DNA from: Rhodophyticola porphyridii
GTDB taxonomy: Bacteria > Pseudomonadota > Alphaproteobacteria > Rhodobacterales > Rhodobacteraceae
NCBI RefSeq assembly: GCF_003688285.1
Contig: NZ_RCNT01000005.1
Location: 197,106 to 261,105, forward strand
DNA: 64,000 nt
Reading direction: 5' to 3'
Below, piece after piece: positions 4,047 through 14,984 of the stretch. The first letter of the stretch is position 1. The number at the start of each line of letters is the position of its first letter. Made by a program: the position numbers and the translations under genes. The notes under the pieces were generated by a model that searched no databases, had not been told where the DNA came from, and saw nothing but the letters and a program-made list of their open reading frames with translations.

Positions 4047-4838
4047 TCAGGTGGCGGCGGACACCGCCCGCCGGGTCATGACGCCGACCAGATGCGCCCG
4101 GTAAGCACCCGAGCCGTGCAGATCGGAGATCATGTCATCGGCAGGCACCGACAGATCGGCGATCGCATCGGCAGAGAAATCCGCTGACAGGGCCGCCTCC
4201 GCCTCGCTCCAGCGGAACACGCCATCCTCCGATGCGCCGGTCACCGCGACCCGCACCCCATCGGCATATTTTGCGACGAAGACACCGACGAGGGCGAAGC
4301 GTGAGGCGGGTTGGACGAATTTCTGGTAATTCGCGGCCTCGGGTACAGGAAAACGCACCTCGGTGATGATCTCGCCTTCATGAAGGGCGGTCGTGAACAT
4401 CCCCTCGAAGAAATCATCGGCCGCGATGTCGCGGGTGTTGGTCTTGATCGTGGCCCCGGTGCCAAGCACCGCGGCAGGGTAGCAGGCGGAGGGGTCGTTA
4501 TTGGCCAGCGATCCGCCTATGGTCCCGCGATTGCGGACCGCCGGGTCGCCGATACGCCCGGCAAGGGCCGCCAGCGCCGGGAAATGCGCCGCCGCTTCGG
4601 CCTCCACCACCGCGTGCGGCGTGGCGCCGCCGATGCAGACCCGGCCGTCATCGTCGAGACAGACACCCTGCATCTCGGGAATGCCGGTCAGGCTGACCAG
4701 GGTTGCCGGGGCGGCGAGCCGCTGTTTCATCGTCGGGATCAGGGTCTGCCCACCGCCCAGCGCCTGTGCCTCTTCGCCCTGAAGCGCCGTCGCGGCCTCA
4801 TCAATGCTACCGGGGCGCGCAAAGTCGAAATTATACAT
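4047..4838 (-). CDS. coxM: CO dehydrogenase-like medium subunit (FAD-binding, CoxM family)
   Basis: 263 residues. This subunit carries FAD and passes electrons from the iron-sulfur subunit. Two FAD-contact motifs are present: ALGGGQTLIPTMK near residue 33 and TIGGSLANNDPSA near residue 110. The start at 4836-4838 has GGAG upstream and matches the family N-terminus (MYNFDFARP); a longer frame upstream has no family similarity. It is last in an S-L-M order, which together with the CoxL active-site loop marks the form II family rather than proven CO dehydrogenases. A likely aerobic molybdenum hydroxylase; substrate uncertain. Confidence 0.9.
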   Translation of the reverse strand: MYNFDFARPGSIDEAATALQGEEAQALGGGQTLIPTMKQRLAAPATLVSLTGIPEMQGVCLDDDGRVCIGGATPHAVVEAEAAAHFPALAALAGRIGDPAVRNRGTIGGSLANNDPSACYPAAVLGTGATIKTNTRDIAADDFFEGMFTTALHEGEIITEVRFPVPEAANYQKFVQPASRFALVGVFVAKYADGVRVAVTGASEDGVFRWSEAEAALSADFSADAIADLSVPADDMISDLHGSGAYRAHLVGVMTRRAVSAAT

Positions 4839-4924
4839 CCGTGTCTCCTCCCGAGAGGGGTAAGCGCCCTCTCCTTGTTCGAAATAGTCAGGCGGGCCCG
4901 CCCGTGTGGCGGCCCCCGCCCGCT

Positions 4925-7291
4925 TCAGCCTTGCATTGCCTGCCACACCCGCGAGGGGCTGAGCGGCATGTCGATATGGGTCACATGGGTGTGCCCCGCC
5001 CGTTGCAGCGCATCCACCACCGCATTGACGACCGATGGCGGCGACCCGATCGCGCCCGCCTCCCCGCAGCCTTTCACGCCCAAGGGGTTGTGGGTGCAGG
5101 GCGTCACGCAGGAATGATCCACCCGGTAGAACGGGACATCGTCGGCGCGTGGCATCGTGTAATCCATGTAGGAGGCGTTCACCAATTGCCCGTTCTCGTC
5201 ATAAACGGCCTGTTCCAGCAGTGCCTGGCCGATACCCTGCGCCACGCCGCCATGCACCTGCCCGTCGACGATCATCGGGTTGACGATATTGCCGAAATCA
5301 TCCGCCGCGGCGAAGGACAGGATCTGCACCTTCCCGGTTTCGGGATCCACCTCCACCTCGCAGGCATAGGCGCCGGACGGGTAAGTGAAGTTGCTTGGGT
5401 CGTAGAACGCGGTTTCCTCCAGCCCCGGTTCGATCTCCTCGATCGGGTAGTTATGCGGCACATAGGCGGCGAGGGTCACATCGCCCCAGGCCACGGATTT
5501 ATCCGTGCCCGCGACGCTGAACTGGCCCTCCTTCAGCTCGATATCCGCTTCGGAGGCTTCCATCAGATGGGCCGCGATCTTCTTGGCCTTGTTGATGATC
5601 TTCTCGGTCGCGCGCACCATGGCCGAGCCGCCCACCGCGAGGCTGCGGGACCCGTAGGTGCCCATACCCATCGGCGTGTTGGCGGTATCGCCATGAACGA
5701 TCTCGACCATGCTTTCGTCGATGCCGATCATGTCGGCCACCACCTGCGCGAAGGAGGTCTCGTGCCCCTGCCCGTGGCTGTGGCTGCCGGTCATCACGAC
5801 CAGACCGCCGGTGGCATTCACCCGCACCGTGGCGCTTTCATAAAGCCCCGCGCGCGCGCCCAACTGCCCGACAAGGGCCGAGGGCGCGATCCCGCAAGCC
5901 TCGATATAGCAGTTCACGCCGAGCCCGCGCAGCTTGCCGTTCCTGGCGCTTTCAGCGCGCCGCGCCTCGAACCCGTCGCGGTCGATCATCTCGAGGAGCT
6001 TGTCCATCGTCGCGTTGTAATCGCCGGTGTCGTATTCCACCGCCACCGGGGTGGCGTAGGGGAACTCGGTGATGAAGTTCTGCCGGCGCAGCTCCACCGG
6101 GTCCACGCCCAGTTCGCGTGCCGCCTTGTCGATCACCCGCTCAAGCTGGAACGTGGCCTCGGGGCGGCCCGCGCCGCGATAGGCATCGACCGGCACGGTA
6201 TTGGTGAAGACCGCCTTCACATTTACGTAGATATTGGGCGTCTTGTAATTGCCCGCCATCAGAATACCATGCAGATAGGTGGGTACCGACGGCGCGAAGG
6301 TCGACAGGTAGGCCCCCATATTCGCATAGGTTTCGGTGCGGATGGCGGTGAAATTGTTCTCCGCGTCCAGCGCCAGTTCGATCCTGGTTACGTGATCGCG
6401 GCCATGGGCGTCGGAGATGAAGGCCTCCGACCGGGTGGAGGTCCATTTCACCGGACGTCTGAGCTGTTTCGCGGCGAAGGTGCAGAAGGCCTCCTCCGCG
6501 TAGTGGAAGATCTTGGAGCCGAAACCGCCGCCCACATCCGGGGCCACGACCCTGAGCTTGTGTTCCGGAATGCCCAGCACGAAGGCGCCCATCAGAAGGC
6601 GGATCACATGGGGGTTCTGCGAGGTGGTGTAGAGTGTGCTTTCGTCTGAATGCTTGGCGTAATCGCCCACGGCCACCCGCGGCTCCATCGGATTGGCCAC
6701 CAGCCTCTGGTTGACCAGTTCCAGCGTCGTCACATGGGCCGCCGCCTCGAAGGCCGCATCGGTCGCCGCCTTGTTATCCTCGATCCAGCCCCAATCATAG
6801 CACAGGTTGCCGTCCAGTTCGTCATGGACCTTGGGCGCATCGTCGGCGAGCGCGGCTTTCATATCCACGACCGCCGGCAGCTCATCCAGGTCCATCTCGA
6901 TCGCCTCGGCCGCGTTGCGGGCCTGGGCATAGGTCTCGGCCACAACCGCGGCAATCGGATCGCCCACATGGCGGGCCTTGCCGCGGGCCAGAACCGGGTG
7001 GGCCGGTTCCTGCATCGGGTTGCCTTGCCTGTCGGTCACCTGCCAGCCGCAGGGAATGCCGCCCACCGCCTCGAAATCCGCGCCGGTGAAGACGCGCAGC
7101 ACGCCGGGCATGTTCTCGGCGGTGGATGTGTCGATCCTGTTGATCCTTGCATGCGCCATGTCGGACCGCAGGAAATACACATAGGCCTGCCCCGCCAGGT
7201 TGATGTCGTCCGTGTAGCGCCCTTCCCCGGTCAGAAACCGCAGGTCTTCGCGCCGCTTGGAACTTGCGCCTATGCCACTGTCTTTCGGCAT
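4925..7291 (-). CDS. coxL: CO dehydrogenase-like large subunit, form II (molybdopterin-binding)
   Basis: 788 residues, normal for the family. It holds the molybdopterin cytosine dinucleotide active site. The active-site loop is AYRGAGR at residues 370-376, the form II signature (form I, true CO oxidisers, has AYxCSFR). Other Moco contacts seen are VGGGFGSK, the [13 protein letters not shown] segment and [13 protein letters not shown] with the conserved Glu at residue 744. GGGAGGAC-like ribosome site precedes the ATG. It lies between coxS and coxM on the minus strand. Known form II enzymes have been linked to CO only weakly, so I infer an aldehyde/purine/other hydroxylase as equally likely. 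Confidence 0.92.
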
Positions 7292-10154: not shown

Positions 10155-10186
10155 GAAAAACGCGCGCCCCGGATCGGGGCGCGCGC
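10155..10186 (-). terminator. Rho-independent terminator of the OmpA-like gene
   Basis: GCGCGCCCCG, a 3-base loop and CGGGGCGCGC form a near-perfect 10-bp stem, followed in the minus direction by TTTTT (10156-10160). It lies about 40 bases after the stop at 10229 and isolates the gene from xdhC. Confidence 0.9.
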
Positions 10187-10228: not shown

Positions 10229-12004
10229 TTACTGCGCGGCGGCAACCTGCAGGAGCGGCGTGATCCGGCGCACGACCGCCCGGCGGTTGGCGCGCTCCGG
10301 GCCGTCTGTCTGCACCCGCAGATTGGATTCGCCGTAGCCCTGCACCACCAGATTTTCCGGCGGCACGTCGAAGTATTCCGAAAGGGCCAGAGCGACGGAT
10401 TCCGCCCGCCGGTCGGACAGGGTCAGGTTCATCGCGGCCCCGCCCACGGCATCGGTGTGGCCTTCGATCAGGAAGATCTCGCCCGGGTTCTCGTCGATCA
10501 TGTCGCTGAGCAGCCGGCCGATCATCGTCAGCTCCTCCGCCTGGGAGGGCGAGATAGCGGCGGAGCCGGTTTCGAAGGTGATGTTGTCCAGATCGATGGC
10601 GGGCGCCAGCAGGCGGACCTCGCGGATGTCGCGCACCTGCGCCAGCGAGAAGCGACGGTCGATCAGCGCCTGACGTTCCAGCGCCGCCCGCAGATCTCCG
10701 TCATTCGTGGTCTCGATCGGGGTCGGCAAGGTGGCCACATCCACCGGCTCGGCCCGGTTCGTATCGTCGATAAGCACGGTTTCGGTGCCGTCCGGCGCGA
10801 TCGAGACGCGACGGACCACCCGCAATTCGGCATCGCGCACGGTGATCACCTGAAAGCCGTCGGGCCGGGTGACCGTGGTCAGCGTCGAGCCGTCGGAGAA
10901 GGTCTGCGTCTGGACTTCGGAGCCCGGCTGGCGCAGCAGCGCGTTGTCGTCCTTCAGAATCTCGTAGCTGCCGTCGCTTCGCTGCACCACGACGCGGTCA
11001 TCGGTCTGGCTTACGACTTCGCGGTTGCCGTTGAGGATCGAGCCGACGACGACTGCACCCGCCCCGATCAGCAAGGCGCGTTCGAGGTTCGAGAGCCCGT
11101 CATCGTCATTGCCGGCCGCGGGGGCGGCGGTCGTTTCGGCACCGGCCTCCGCCGTGGCCTCGCCCGAGGCGGATTGCTCGAAATCCTCGGAACTGGAGCG
11201 GGAGTTCTCCTCGGTCACGGTTTCGGTCGTGACCTCGGCCTCAGACTCGCCCTCGGCGCCCAAGGCCGCGAGGGGGGCTTGCGTCTCCTCCTCGGTGGCG
11301 GCGGCGTCGGCCTCAGCGGTCGCGGTTTCGGATGTCGCGGTCTCTGTCGATCCCGCGTCCGTCGTTTCGGTTTCCGTGACCTCGGTGTCCTGTGTCTCGG
11401 CGGTGTCCGATATCTCCGCCGGGGGTGTCCCGGCCTCGCCAGTGACGGCAGCCTCGGCTTCGGTCTCGACCGTCGCGTCGGTTTCAGTCTCCGCCGTGCT
11501 TTCGGGGGCCGGCGTCTCCGTCTCGGATGTGGCGTCCCCCTCGGCAGCGGCTTCCGCTTCGACAGCGGTTTCGGCGTCCGCGGCGGGCGCCTCGGCGGTG
11601 GCGTCTGTCTCTGCCCCGGCCTCGGTCTCGGTCTGTGTTTCGGTCTGCGCCTCCGCTTCGGCAGCGGCGGCTTCTGCTTCTTCCACTGCGGCCTCCAGCT
11701 CAGCCTGTGCGGCGGCTTCGGCCTCTGCGGCGGCGGCTTCGGCGTCCGCGGCGGCCTGAGCCTCCGCTTCGGTGGCGGCCTCTGCCTCCACGGCAGCCTC
11801 GGCGGCTGCGGCCTCGGCCTCGGCTTCGGCGGCTGCGTCTGCCGCGGCCTGTTCGCCAAGCAGAAGGCAATCCGCCTCTGACGTGCCCTCGGGGCATTCG
11901 AATTCCGGTACGGCCTCTCCCAATCCCTGCGCCGGCAACGTTCCCGGCATGGCGAGGGCGAGGCTGGCAATCAGGGCGGTGGACGTTTTCAGCGAAAGTC
12001 GCAT
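10229..12004 (-). CDS. OmpA-family protein with long Ala/Glu/Thr-rich low-complexity region
   Basis: 591 residues. N-terminal signal peptide (LIASLALAMPGTLPAQ), then residues ~50-290 of Ala/Glu followed by Glu/Thr/Ala repeats, a short hydrophobic helix (LERALLIGAGAVVVGSIL, ~305-322), a beta-rich linker with repeated VVQRSDGSYEILKD-like units, and a C-terminal OmpA peptidoglycan-binding domain (ITFETGSAAISPSQAEEL, IEGHTDAVGGAAMN, LSDRRAESVA, VQGYGESN). It probably links the envelope to peptidoglycan. It interrupts the cox-like genes but has its own terminator. The repeat composition matches the protein at 592-1248. Confidence 0.88.
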   Translation of the reverse strand: MRLSLKTSTALIASLALAMPGTLPAQGLGEAVPEFECPEGTSEADCLLLGEQAAADAAAEAEAEAAAAEAAVEAEAATEAEAQAAADAEAAAAEAEAAAQAELEAAVEEAEAAAAEAEAQTETQTETEAGAETDATAEAPAADAETAVEAEAAAEGDATSETETPAPESTAETETDATVETEAEAAVTGEAGTPPAEISDTAETQDTEVTETETTDAGSTETATSETATAEADAAATEEETQAPLAALGAEGESEAEVTTETVTEENSRSSSEDFEQSASGEATAEAGAETTAAPAAGNDDDGLSNLERALLIGAGAVVVGSILNGNREVVSQTDDRVVVQRSDGSYEILKDDNALLRQPGSEVQTQTFSDGSTLTTVTRPDGFQVITVRDAELRVVRRVSIAPDGTETVLIDDTNRAEPVDVATLPTPIETTNDGDLRAALERQALIDRRFSLAQVRDIREVRLLAPAIDLDNITFETGSAAISPSQAEELTMIGRLLSDMIDENPGEIFLIEGHTDAVGGAAMNLTLSDRRAESVALALSEYFDVPPENLVVQGYGESNLRVQTDGPERANRRAVVRRITPLLQVAAAQ

Positions 12005-12024: not shown

Positions 12025-13335
12025 TCAGTGCGAGAGGTTAACGGCCCCGTCAGCCAAAAGTTCCCGCTCCGGCCCGGGCGCCTCGCGCGCCAGCCACTCG
12101 CGCAGACGCGCGGCCTCTCCCGGATCGGCCCCATCCGACAGCGCCGCGGCCAGCCCTTCCAGAGCGGCGATGTTATGGCCCGCGCGGAACGTATCCACAT
12201 GGGGCAGGATCGCGCGGATGCCCGCCGCTTTCGGCGCGAACCCCTCCCACCGCAGCAGCGGGTTCAGCCAGATCACGCGCCGCGCCGACAGGTGCAGCCG
12301 CTCCATCTCGCGGGCCAGGGCCTCCGGGTCGTCCCGGTCGAGCCCGTCGGTGATCAGCAAGACCACCGCGCCCTGCCCCAGCACCCGGCGGGACCAGTCG
12401 CGGTTGAACGCATGCAGGCAGGCCCCGATCCGCGTGCCCCCCTCCCAGTCCTGCGCCTCGGCCCCGGCCGCGGCCAGCGCCGCGTCCACATCCCGCTGAC
12501 CCAGATGCCGGGTGATATTGGTCAGCCGGGTGCCGAAGGTGAAGGCATGCACCCGCGCCCAACCCGCGCCCTTGCGGTTCGCAACCGCATGCAGGAAATG
12601 CAGAACCGCCCGGGAATAGGCGGACATCGAGCCCGAGATATCGCAAAGGCACACCAGATTGGGCCAGCGCAGGCGGCGTCGGCGCATCTCGAACCCGGTG
12701 ATCTCCCCGCCCTGCCGCATCGCCGCCCGCATGGTGCGCCGCCAATCCGGCAGGGCACCGCCGCGCGCGGCCATGGTCCGGCGGCTTTGCAGGGGCCGGA
12801 CCGGCAGGCTCAGAGCCGCCAGCATCCGTTTCGCCGCCGCGATCTCGGCCGTACTCATCTGTTCGAAATCGAGGCTGCGCAACCTTTCCTCCCCGGACAT
12901 GGTGAAGGAGGCATCGACCTCGATCTCGGTGCCCTCCTCCTCGCCCATGCCCTCGGGCAGATCCCGCGCCGCCCCGTCGAGCAGCGCCTCGGCGGCCCGT
13001 TTCTCCGCCGGTTTGGCAAGACGGTCCTCGGCGACGCCGCGGATCGCCGGCAGCATCATCGCCATCATGTGTTCCAGATAACGCGGATCGCGCCAGAACA
13101 GCCGGAACACCTGCGCGAAAACAATGCGCTGTTCGGGGCGCGAAACGAAACAGGCGTGAAGCGTCCAGTAGAAATCGGTCCGGTCAGAGAAGCCCGCGGC
13201 CTCCACCGCACGGATCGCCTCGACCACCCGCCCCGGACCGATGGGCAAGCCCGCCTTGCGCAAGGCCCGCGCGAAATGGGTGATGTTGCCCGCAAGGCGC
13301 GGAGTTTCAGGAAGCTCCAGCGGCGTATGCTCCAT
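12025..13335 (-). CDS. coxE: CoxE-like von Willebrand factor A protein
   Basis: 436 residues. The VWA domain in the C-terminal half has an intact metal-ion-dependent adhesion site: DISGSMS, a GGTRIG threonine and LLITDGLDRDD. The N-terminal part matches the DUF58/CoxE helical region. CoxE works with the AAA+ ATPase CoxD to build the Cu/Mo site in Oligotropha carboxidovorans CODH; other members pair with MoxR ATPases. Start at 13333-13335 has AAGGA upstream. Its ATPase partner is the gene at 13855-14754, separated by an opposite-strand broken gene. Role in maturing the form II enzyme is inference from context. Confidence 0.87.
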   Translation of the reverse strand: MEHTPLELPETPRLAGNITHFARALRKAGLPIGPGRVVEAIRAVEAAGFSDRTDFYWTLHACFVSRPEQRIVFAQVFRLFWRDPRYLEHMMAMMLPAIRGVAEDRLAKPAEKRAAEALLDGAARDLPEGMGEEEGTEIEVDASFTMSGEERLRSLDFEQMSTAEIAAAKRMLAALSLPVRPLQSRRTMAARGGALPDWRRTMRAAMRQGGEITGFEMRRRRLRWPNLVCLCDISGSMSAYSRAVLHFLHAVANRKGAGWARVHAFTFGTRLTNITRHLGQRDVDAALAAAGAEAQDWEGGTRIGACLHAFNRDWSRRVLGQGAVVLLITDGLDRDDPEALAREMERLHLSARRVIWLNPLLRWEGFAPKAAGIRAILPHVDTFRAGHNIAALEGLAAALSDGADPGEAARLREWLAREAPGPERELLADGAVNLSH

Positions 13336-13471
13336 GGTTTGTCCTTCTGCGAAAGCCAAATCCGAAAATCGCGGGGCCGCCACCTTGGCCGCGCAACGGT
13401 CTGTTTTTGAACCCGGCATGTCAAGCACGCGACCCACGGGCACAACATCAACACATCATGGACCTCAAGCA

Positions 13472-13828
13472 ATGACAAAGACTGCAGTTGCGGTGGTTTC
13501 AGCCCTTTTGATCACCGCCATCGGCATCCCGTTCGCGCCCATGGCCGAGGCATAGTCGCGGGACGTCGGCGGTGGTTTCGCAGAAACACCGAACGACGGC
13601 GGATCGCGCCCGGATCGTGGCGGCGATGGATTTTCCCCATCGGGTGGTGACAACGACCATGAAAGAAACGGGTCCGGCGGCAGCTTTAGCTGTCCGCCAA
13701 CCAGCGACCCGGATGCAACCGGTGTCTGCGGATTGCCGCTTCTGGCCAAAGACGCTGTGTGCAACGGGCGCGGAGGCGGCAGCAGCACAGGGCCTGATGG
13801 TGGGTTTGTCTGTACCGTTCCAGACTGA
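13472..13828 (+). pseudogene. Secreted Cys/Gly-rich small protein split by an in-frame TAG
   Basis: ATG 13472 opens a 27-codon frame encoding a textbook signal peptide (AVAVVSALLITAIGIPFA, then PMAEA) that stops at TAG 13553-13555. The same frame then stays open for 90 codons to TGA 13826-13828 and reads as a coherent Gly/Asp-rich mature domain with four cysteines (SCPPTSDP, GVCGLP, AVCNG, FVCTVPD). A single change (for example CAG to TAG at codon 28) would restore a 118-residue secreted protein. Options are a recent nonsense mutation, a sequencing error, or amber readthrough. It sits alone on the plus strand between coxE and moxR. Confidence 0.6.
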
Positions 13829-13839
13829 CAGCATACACG

Positions 13840-13863
13840 GTGACCTGAGCCAGCTCAGGTCAC
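13840..13863. terminator. Perfect palindrome at the convergent ends of the secreted-protein gene and moxR
   Basis: GTGACCTGAGC (13840-13850), loop CA, GCTCAGGTCAC (13853-13863): an 11-bp perfect stem. It contains the moxR stop codon (13855-13857) and has no U tract, so it may terminate, stall, or protect the 3' end of either transcript, or bind a dimeric protein. Confidence 0.45.
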
Positions 13864-14754
13864 TGCGACCGCGGCGCGCGCCTCGTCCAGAATCCGTTTC
13901 GCTTCGGAGCCTTCGAGACGCTGGATATCGTCCTGATACTTCAGGATCGCGCCCAGTGTGTCGGCGATCACATCGGGGCTCAGTTCGACCACATCCAGCG
14001 CCAGCAGGCATTTCGCCCAATCGATCGTTTCCGCCACGCCCGGTTTCTTGAACAGATCCTCGGTTCTGAGCCGCTGGACGAAAGCCACGACTTCGCGGCT
14101 CAAGGCCTCGGACGCGTCGGGAACGCGGGCCCGGATGATCCGCATCTCGCGGTCGAAATCGGGGTAGTCGACCCAGTGATAGAGGCAGCGGCGTTTCAGT
14201 GCGTCATGCACCTCGCGCGTGCGGTTCGAGGTCAGGATCACGATGGGCGGCTCGGGCGCCCGGATCGTGCCCAGTTCGGGGATCGTCACCTGAAAGTCCG
14301 ACAGCGCCTCCAAAAGGAACGCCTCGAACGGCTCGTCGGTCCGGTCCAACTCGTCGATCAGAAGCACCGGCGCGCCCGCCGCATCCGGTCGCATCGCTTG
14401 CAACAAGGGCCGTTCGATCAGGTAATCGGCGGAAAACAGCGCCTTGGTCAGCACCTCCTTGTCCGCCCCGCCCTCGGCCTCGGCGGCGCGGATCGCGACC
14501 ATCTGCGCCGCGAAATTCCATTCATAGACGGCGCTGGCCGCATCCAGCCCCTCGTAACATTGCAGGCGGATCAGGCGGCGTCCGAGGCTTGCCGCAATCG
14601 CCTTAGCGATCTCGGTCTTGCCGGTGCCGGCCTCGCCTTCGAGAAACAGGGGACGGCCCAGTTTCAGGGACAGGAACACCACCGTCGCCAACGGTCGGCC
14701 ACACACGTAATTCTGCGCAGCGAGGGCTTGGGTGACCGCATCGATGCTTTGCAT
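13855..14754 (-). CDS. coxD: MoxR/CoxD-family AAA+ ATPase
   Basis: 299 residues. Walker A GEAGTGKT with Lys46, Walker B VLLIDELDRTDE, sensor-type ILTSNRTREVHDALKRRC. The ATG 14752-14754 follows a strong AGGAGGAGAGG ribosome site; a longer frame upstream has no family similarity. MoxR ATPases act as chaperones with a VWA partner, here the CoxE-like protein encoded just downstream. In CODH clusters CoxD promotes active-site maturation. I infer the same for the local hydroxylase. Confidence in family is high, in the specific symbol moderate. Confidence 0.9.
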   Translation of the reverse strand: MQSIDAVTQALAAQNYVCGRPLATVVFLSLKLGRPLFLEGEAGTGKTEIAKAIAASLGRRLIRLQCYEGLDAASAVYEWNFAAQMVAIRAAEAEGGADKEVLTKALFSADYLIERPLLQAMRPDAAGAPVLLIDELDRTDEPFEAFLLEALSDFQVTIPELGTIRAPEPPIVILTSNRTREVHDALKRRCLYHWVDYPDFDREMRIIRARVPDASEALSREVVAFVQRLRTEDLFKKPGVAETIDWAKCLLALDVVELSPDVIADTLGAILKYQDDIQRLEGSEAKRILDEARAAVAVT

Positions 14755-14984
14755 GGCCTCTCCTCCTTGAGCGCCCATCAAGGCGGCGCAGATCATCACC
14801 GTCAAGCCCCGCCTTGGGCCGCCACGAAACAATCGCGCCCTTTCGTTGACCCGATTACCCCTTCTGACACCGTTAAGGTTTTGGTAACTATTCCCCCAAG
14901 AAAAACCACATCCGATGCGCGGCGCTGCCACAGTTGTCTCCCATGACGGCAGCGGTACGAGTTGATTAGTTTTGAGAGAGTGTC

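Follow-up and report, generated by a model that had tools for sequence, protein, structure and literature searches.

The split reading frame described here lies between two co-oriented genes of the window, by which we mean the whole 64,000-nt stretch of DNA that was analyzed. On the minus strand, a MoxR/MadB-like AAA ATPase gene occupies 13855..14757 and a CoxE-type VWA protein gene occupies 12025..13335, leaving an intergenic slot of 519 nt (13336..13854). The CoxE-type start at 13335 was chosen from the conserved N-terminus, and the longer ORF, which extends to 13443, matched Pfam VWA_CoxE with an E value of 3.3e-64. The ATPase reading given starts one codon before Met; its longer ORF, to 14931, matched AAA_5 (E 1.1e-10) and scored 262.8 bits with MadB_ATPase, below the 475-bit cut-off. 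The pair resembles CoxD/CoxE of carbon monoxide dehydrogenase maturation (compare PMC3471820 and PMC4240915). The antisense split frame shows no link to the function of the pair.

The slot contains two open stretches on the plus strand. The leader ORF (13472..13555) runs for 27 codons from ATG 13472, is signal-peptide-like, ends with Ala-Glu-Ala and is stopped by TAG 13553-13555. The downstream open frame (13556..13828) has 90 sense codons followed by TGA 13826-13828, and its translation is Gly-rich (22 Gly) with four Cys. Reading of the sequence places the leader, the TAG and the 90-codon part in one frame, which is antisense to the moxR-coxE pair inside its gap, divergent from the CoxE-type gene and convergent with the ATPase gene. 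A sequence-only reading had described a frame continuous across TAG 13553, with a signal peptide upstream, a four-Cys, Gly/Asp-rich domain downstream, and the split near the expected cleavage site. The coordinates and translation bear out the continuous frame, the composition of the 90 codons agrees with the domain, and the position of Ala-Glu-Ala directly before TAG agrees with the placement of the split. The signal peptide was recovered using simple hydropathy and motif rules.

Those rules, applied by script and combined with a reading of the translation, define what is called signal-peptide-like here. The leader has a charged start with a Lys, a hydrophobic core with a best 12-residue mean hydropathy of 2.76, and an A-x-A site. 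Because Ala-Glu-Ala forms the leader end, signal peptidase I is predicted to cut right where the TAG stands. A cleavage site in this position argues for a former secreted-protein gene. Small membrane proteins with a single helix form a known class, and the 27-residue peptide could itself be what the locus makes, a short hydrophobic peptide of the membrane to which the downstream frame is irrelevant. The leader codon score of 0.222, the best among its six frames, is in favor of such a peptide. Against it, there are only 27 codons, the A-x-A end resembles a cleavage site and not the end of a membrane peptide, and no clear ribosome-binding site was seen by eye. We regard this as very unlikely.

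The TAG was next to be explained. The sequence-only reading offered a nonsense mutation or a recoded/readthrough gene; the description of the locus stood, while recoding found no support. TAG is not a rare or avoided stop in this genome region, as it ends 13/39 confident window ORFs (TGA ends 25 and TAA 1). No CUA anticodon was present in the 39 tRNA genes read, which are 38 over the RF00005 cut-off plus a tRNA-Tyr (GTA) found by pattern, a list that is incomplete since tRNA-Ile, tRNA-Ala(TGC) and tRNA-Leu(TAA) were unseen. The pyrrolysyl-tRNA synthetase model TIGR02367 gave a best match of 32 bits versus a cut-off of 178.15 bits; as a control, the model had matches in 13/14 control genomes, one of them over the cut-off. 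The RNA folds no differently from its shuffles, either over the 98 nt beginning with the TAG (z 0.60) or over the leader (z 0.33). The best reading of the TAG that follows codon 27 is an ordinary stop, and the common use of TAG as a true stop is compatible with a gene that died by acquiring one.

If the TAG were read through, by a programmed mechanism or by leakiness, a low level of full-length secreted protein would be made; this would fit a frame that continues on both sides and lacks an independent start soon after the stop. PMC7918605 reports bacterial genes with in-frame stops under purifying selection, and the frame here is like them in having one in-frame TAG with the frame open on both sides. 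The genes reported there are orthologous with measurable dN/dS, whereas no homologue of the split frame was found, so selection is not measurable. With no conservation seen, no CUA tRNA among the 39 tRNA genes read, no PylS match above the cut-off, and no special RNA fold after a stop that is in common use, readthrough is highly improbable. A still bolder version, a putative orphan four-Cys secreted protein with export gated by a stop exactly at the cleavage site, is the least probable reading we considered. Termination would then yield a bare leader and occasional readthrough the full precursor.

An independent start for the downstream part, which the sequence-only reading named as evidence against a split gene, was not seen. 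There is no ATG after TAG in the frame of the 90-codon part, and the earliest start-like in-frame codons are TTG 13733, CTG 13742 and GTG 13757. Since start-like codons occur only from 13733 on, most of the 90 codons lie before any candidate start.

Given an ordinary stop, the split frame is most probably either dead or a product of chance. In the first case it would be a lineage-specific (orphan) small secreted-protein gene, lying opposite to moxR-coxE in a variable slot and now dead, which we hold tentatively and at somewhat less than an even chance. In the second case the whole 519-nt slot would be non-coding spacer, in which a leader and a Gly-rich frame coincide by chance in GC-rich DNA; this is nearly as likely.

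Codon usage was scored relative to 39 confident window ORFs (15,250 codons), selected for their length and GC pattern, from which 279 comparison windows of 90 codons each were cut. The 90-codon part scored -0.152 per codon, below all 279 real-gene windows (minimum -0.108, median 0.367), and two other frames of the same stretch scored better (-0.042 and -0.115). Synonymous choice alone was also poor (-0.107 versus a 1% point of -0.057). GC by codon position in the downstream part was 0.67/0.66/0.60, without the third-position excess found in seven nearby genes (0.79-0.88). The other frames and the opposite strand of the stretch were considered as genes in their turn; at -0.364 to -0.042 per codon they are not gene-like. 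A coding signature on both sides of TAG was thus not found. These values favor a chance frame and count against a dead gene, although a foreign gene taken up recently might fail a codon-usage test too, and atypical codon use would fit one. Also against a dead gene, no sigma-70-like promoter was found within 13250-13950, and single-sequence structure prediction for the 90-aa part gave a mean pLDDT of 43.6, without a confident structure.

The weak coding signal applies as well to a fifth explanation, in which, through a sequencing error or strain polymorphism, the gene is broken in this assembly alone while the living population carries it whole. The frame is open but for one stop, which speaks for such an event. 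On the other side, an assembly error of one base is improbable to begin with, and the searches turned up no other genome of the species for comparison. We judge this explanation to be very unlikely.

Homologues of the downstream 90 codons, a check proposed in the sequence-only reading, were sought at several taxonomic depths. The genome samples overlap, include the window's own genome, and cover part of the family, order and class. Among 7 genomes of the genus, the 90-aa part matched itself alone. Among 394 genomes of the family there were 16 matches at E <= 0.01, comprising its own and 15 short stretches with E 3.6e-4 to 0.0099. All 15 (L009-L016 and L017-L023) were read in context and none had a leader plus a similar Cys layout. 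Among 385 genomes of the class, two matched at E <= 0.001, its own and L165 (E 6.4e-6). L165 was rejected as a homologue and judged chance; it lies in a Gly/Asp-rich frame interrupted by a TGA, and the match stops short of the last three Cys. Genome contigs, plasmids, phages and viral contigs gave no convincing homologue of the 90-codon part.

The 50-aa Cys part was searched against 390 genomes of the order, and 59 matched at E <= 0.1, own included. Nineteen of these loci were read (L105-L123). Two, L107 and L118, come from genomes of the same family and hold small frames that resemble lipoproteins and have a comparable Cys/Gly stretch; the other loci read were judged chance. Like the C-terminal part of the split frame, L107 and L118 have a Cys-flanked, Gly-rich stretch, Cys-x3-Gly-Gly ... 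Cys. Identity was 43% over positions 5-45 for L107 and 45% over positions 4-47 for L118, but with E values of only 0.0037 and 0.02. Both seem to carry what we take to be a lipobox, not a signal peptidase I site. L107 itself had one weak match in 147 relatives, with a TGA inside, and no match at E <= 0.01 in the window's genome. This sequence likeness may be regarded as a lead only.

Neither half of the split frame matched Pfam or NCBIfam up to E 1, and a 35-aa piece gave nothing in these databases up to E 10. In PHROGs, with the 90-aa part as sole query, the single match was phrog_6000 at E 0.16. A likeness to the DUF333 Cys/Gly pattern was considered and set aside, as Pfam does not support it.

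As far as these searches reach, then, the 90 codons have no convincing homologue, and none with a continuous frame across the TAG was found in the 7 genus, 394 family, 390 order and 385 class genomes. This is expected of a chance frame and speaks against a dead gene. Since neither a homologue nor another genome of the species turned up to show a codon at the TAG site, relatives cannot date a nonsense mutation.

The frequency with which chance gives such a layout was estimated using 3000 dinucleotide shuffles of the 519-nt gap. An open run of at least 90 codons occurred in some frame in 2966/3000 shuffles, so the open frame alone means nothing, and to this extent a chance frame is favored. The composite of a leader, an A-x-A-like end and at least 85 open codons was rare (10/3000), which favors a dead gene. 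The same composite was counted in 700,616 bases from 80 relatives' loci, which are mostly genes. Five cases were found, or 0.46 per 64 kb, a rate that counts for a chance frame. Restricting the leader to a hydropathy of at least 2.7 left one case, or 0.09 per 64 kb; the rarity of a leader this hydrophobic in such a layout favors a dead gene and, together with the Gly-rich composition with four Cys, speaks against a chance frame. A second, weaker case is present in the window at 4393, where a signal-peptide-like stretch is followed by TAG and then 99 open codons. It is probably chance, and adds to the case for a chance frame. The stretch at 4393 is antisense to a long ORF, 4047-4946. Overall the layout is uncommon, yet it was chosen from 64 kb after the fact.

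Beyond the TGA lies an inverted repeat (13840..13863) with a perfect 11-bp stem and a 2-nt loop. It starts 12 nt past the TGA and overlaps the MoxR-type stop codon. The 46 nt at 13830-13875 fold with a z of -4.26, and 0/200 shuffles were equally stable. Perfect stems of at least 11 bp number three in the window versus 4 in ten random 64-kb sequences. The corresponding position was compared among 85 rows, each covering the last 15 nt of the ATPase gene and the 45 nt beyond it. The rows are the window, 80 loci, and four loci from the genus, among which L004 duplicates L024. Only the window had a stem this long; L063 had 7 bp, and 83 rows had none of 7 bp or more. In 59/76 relatives coxE lies within 128 nt of moxR, so a terminator at this point would be hard to account for if no convergent unit ended here. 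The hairpin suggests the end of a plus-strand (convergent) transcription unit, and its occurrence in the window row alone supports a dead gene over a chance frame. It is possibly a bidirectional terminator. On the other side, it has no U-run and could serve the MoxR-type ATPase gene instead. The two other perfect long hairpins of the window are at 535-561 (12 bp), just inside the start of a long ORF, 530-1975, and at 10161-10185 (11 bp), just downstream of an OmpA-domain gene, 10229-12004, on the minus strand.

The slot was then compared among relatives using the best 80 named loci of 589 ATPase loci, 76 of which have a VWA gene in reach. It is 128 nt or shorter in 59/76 and more than 400 nt in 17/76. 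The long slots hold frames unlike the split frame. Eight slot proteins were scanned; one matched AAA_18 at 28 bits, slightly under the curated cut-off of 29.4, one was SpoIIAA-like, one matched Glyoxalase, and five had nothing at E <= 0.001. The SpoIIAA-like frame, in L086, is opposite to the operon, as perhaps is one in L081, showing that the slot can hold a frame oriented as a dead gene here would be. Slot cargo in relatives includes secreted-looking and kinase-like frames. The slot proteins of L025, L026, L030, L043, L050 and L091 are secreted-looking and have a similar C-terminal part with the pattern D-T-x-L-x-x-N-x-P-D-G-x-W ... S-S-N-N-P-A, preceded by Cys-rich repeats in L043, L050 and L091. 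That of L026 has no Pfam match at E <= 0.001.

In the closest relative, Boseongicola sp. H5 (L024), the ATPase is 96% identical and the gap is 488 nt. Its most protein-like frame by eye has 130 aa and runs in the operon direction, overlapped by a 170-aa frame on the opposite strand; the 130-aa frame has no Pfam match. A forced alignment of the window's gap with the sister-genome gap was random-looking by eye, and a DNA search of genome G005, probably that of the same relative, with the region matched solely inside the ATPase gene. In three further genomes of the genus the gap measures 45, 179 and 179 nt. When all six frames of the window's gap were compared with 84 relatives' loci, no peptide matched below E 0.05, and the gap DNA gave five matches of 19-42 nt there (best E 5.8e-4). 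With a sister-genome gap that is unlike and gaps in other relatives that are shorter or different, the split-frame stretch appears specific to this lineage, in a slot of differing content.

If the split frame was once a gene, the course of events may have been as follows. A stop would have arisen by mutation after codon 27, and with TAG acting as an ordinary stop, at most the 27-residue leader would be made. The Gly-rich four-Cys part would be left untranslated, and the hairpin at 13840-13863 may be the terminator of the former gene.

As it stands, a single broken or chance orphan frame has little meaning. If translation did run across the TAG, the locus would be an unusual instance of recoding where a signal peptide joins its mature part. 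The variable slot between two co-oriented genes makes a modest point on where Rhodobacterales genomes acquire genes.
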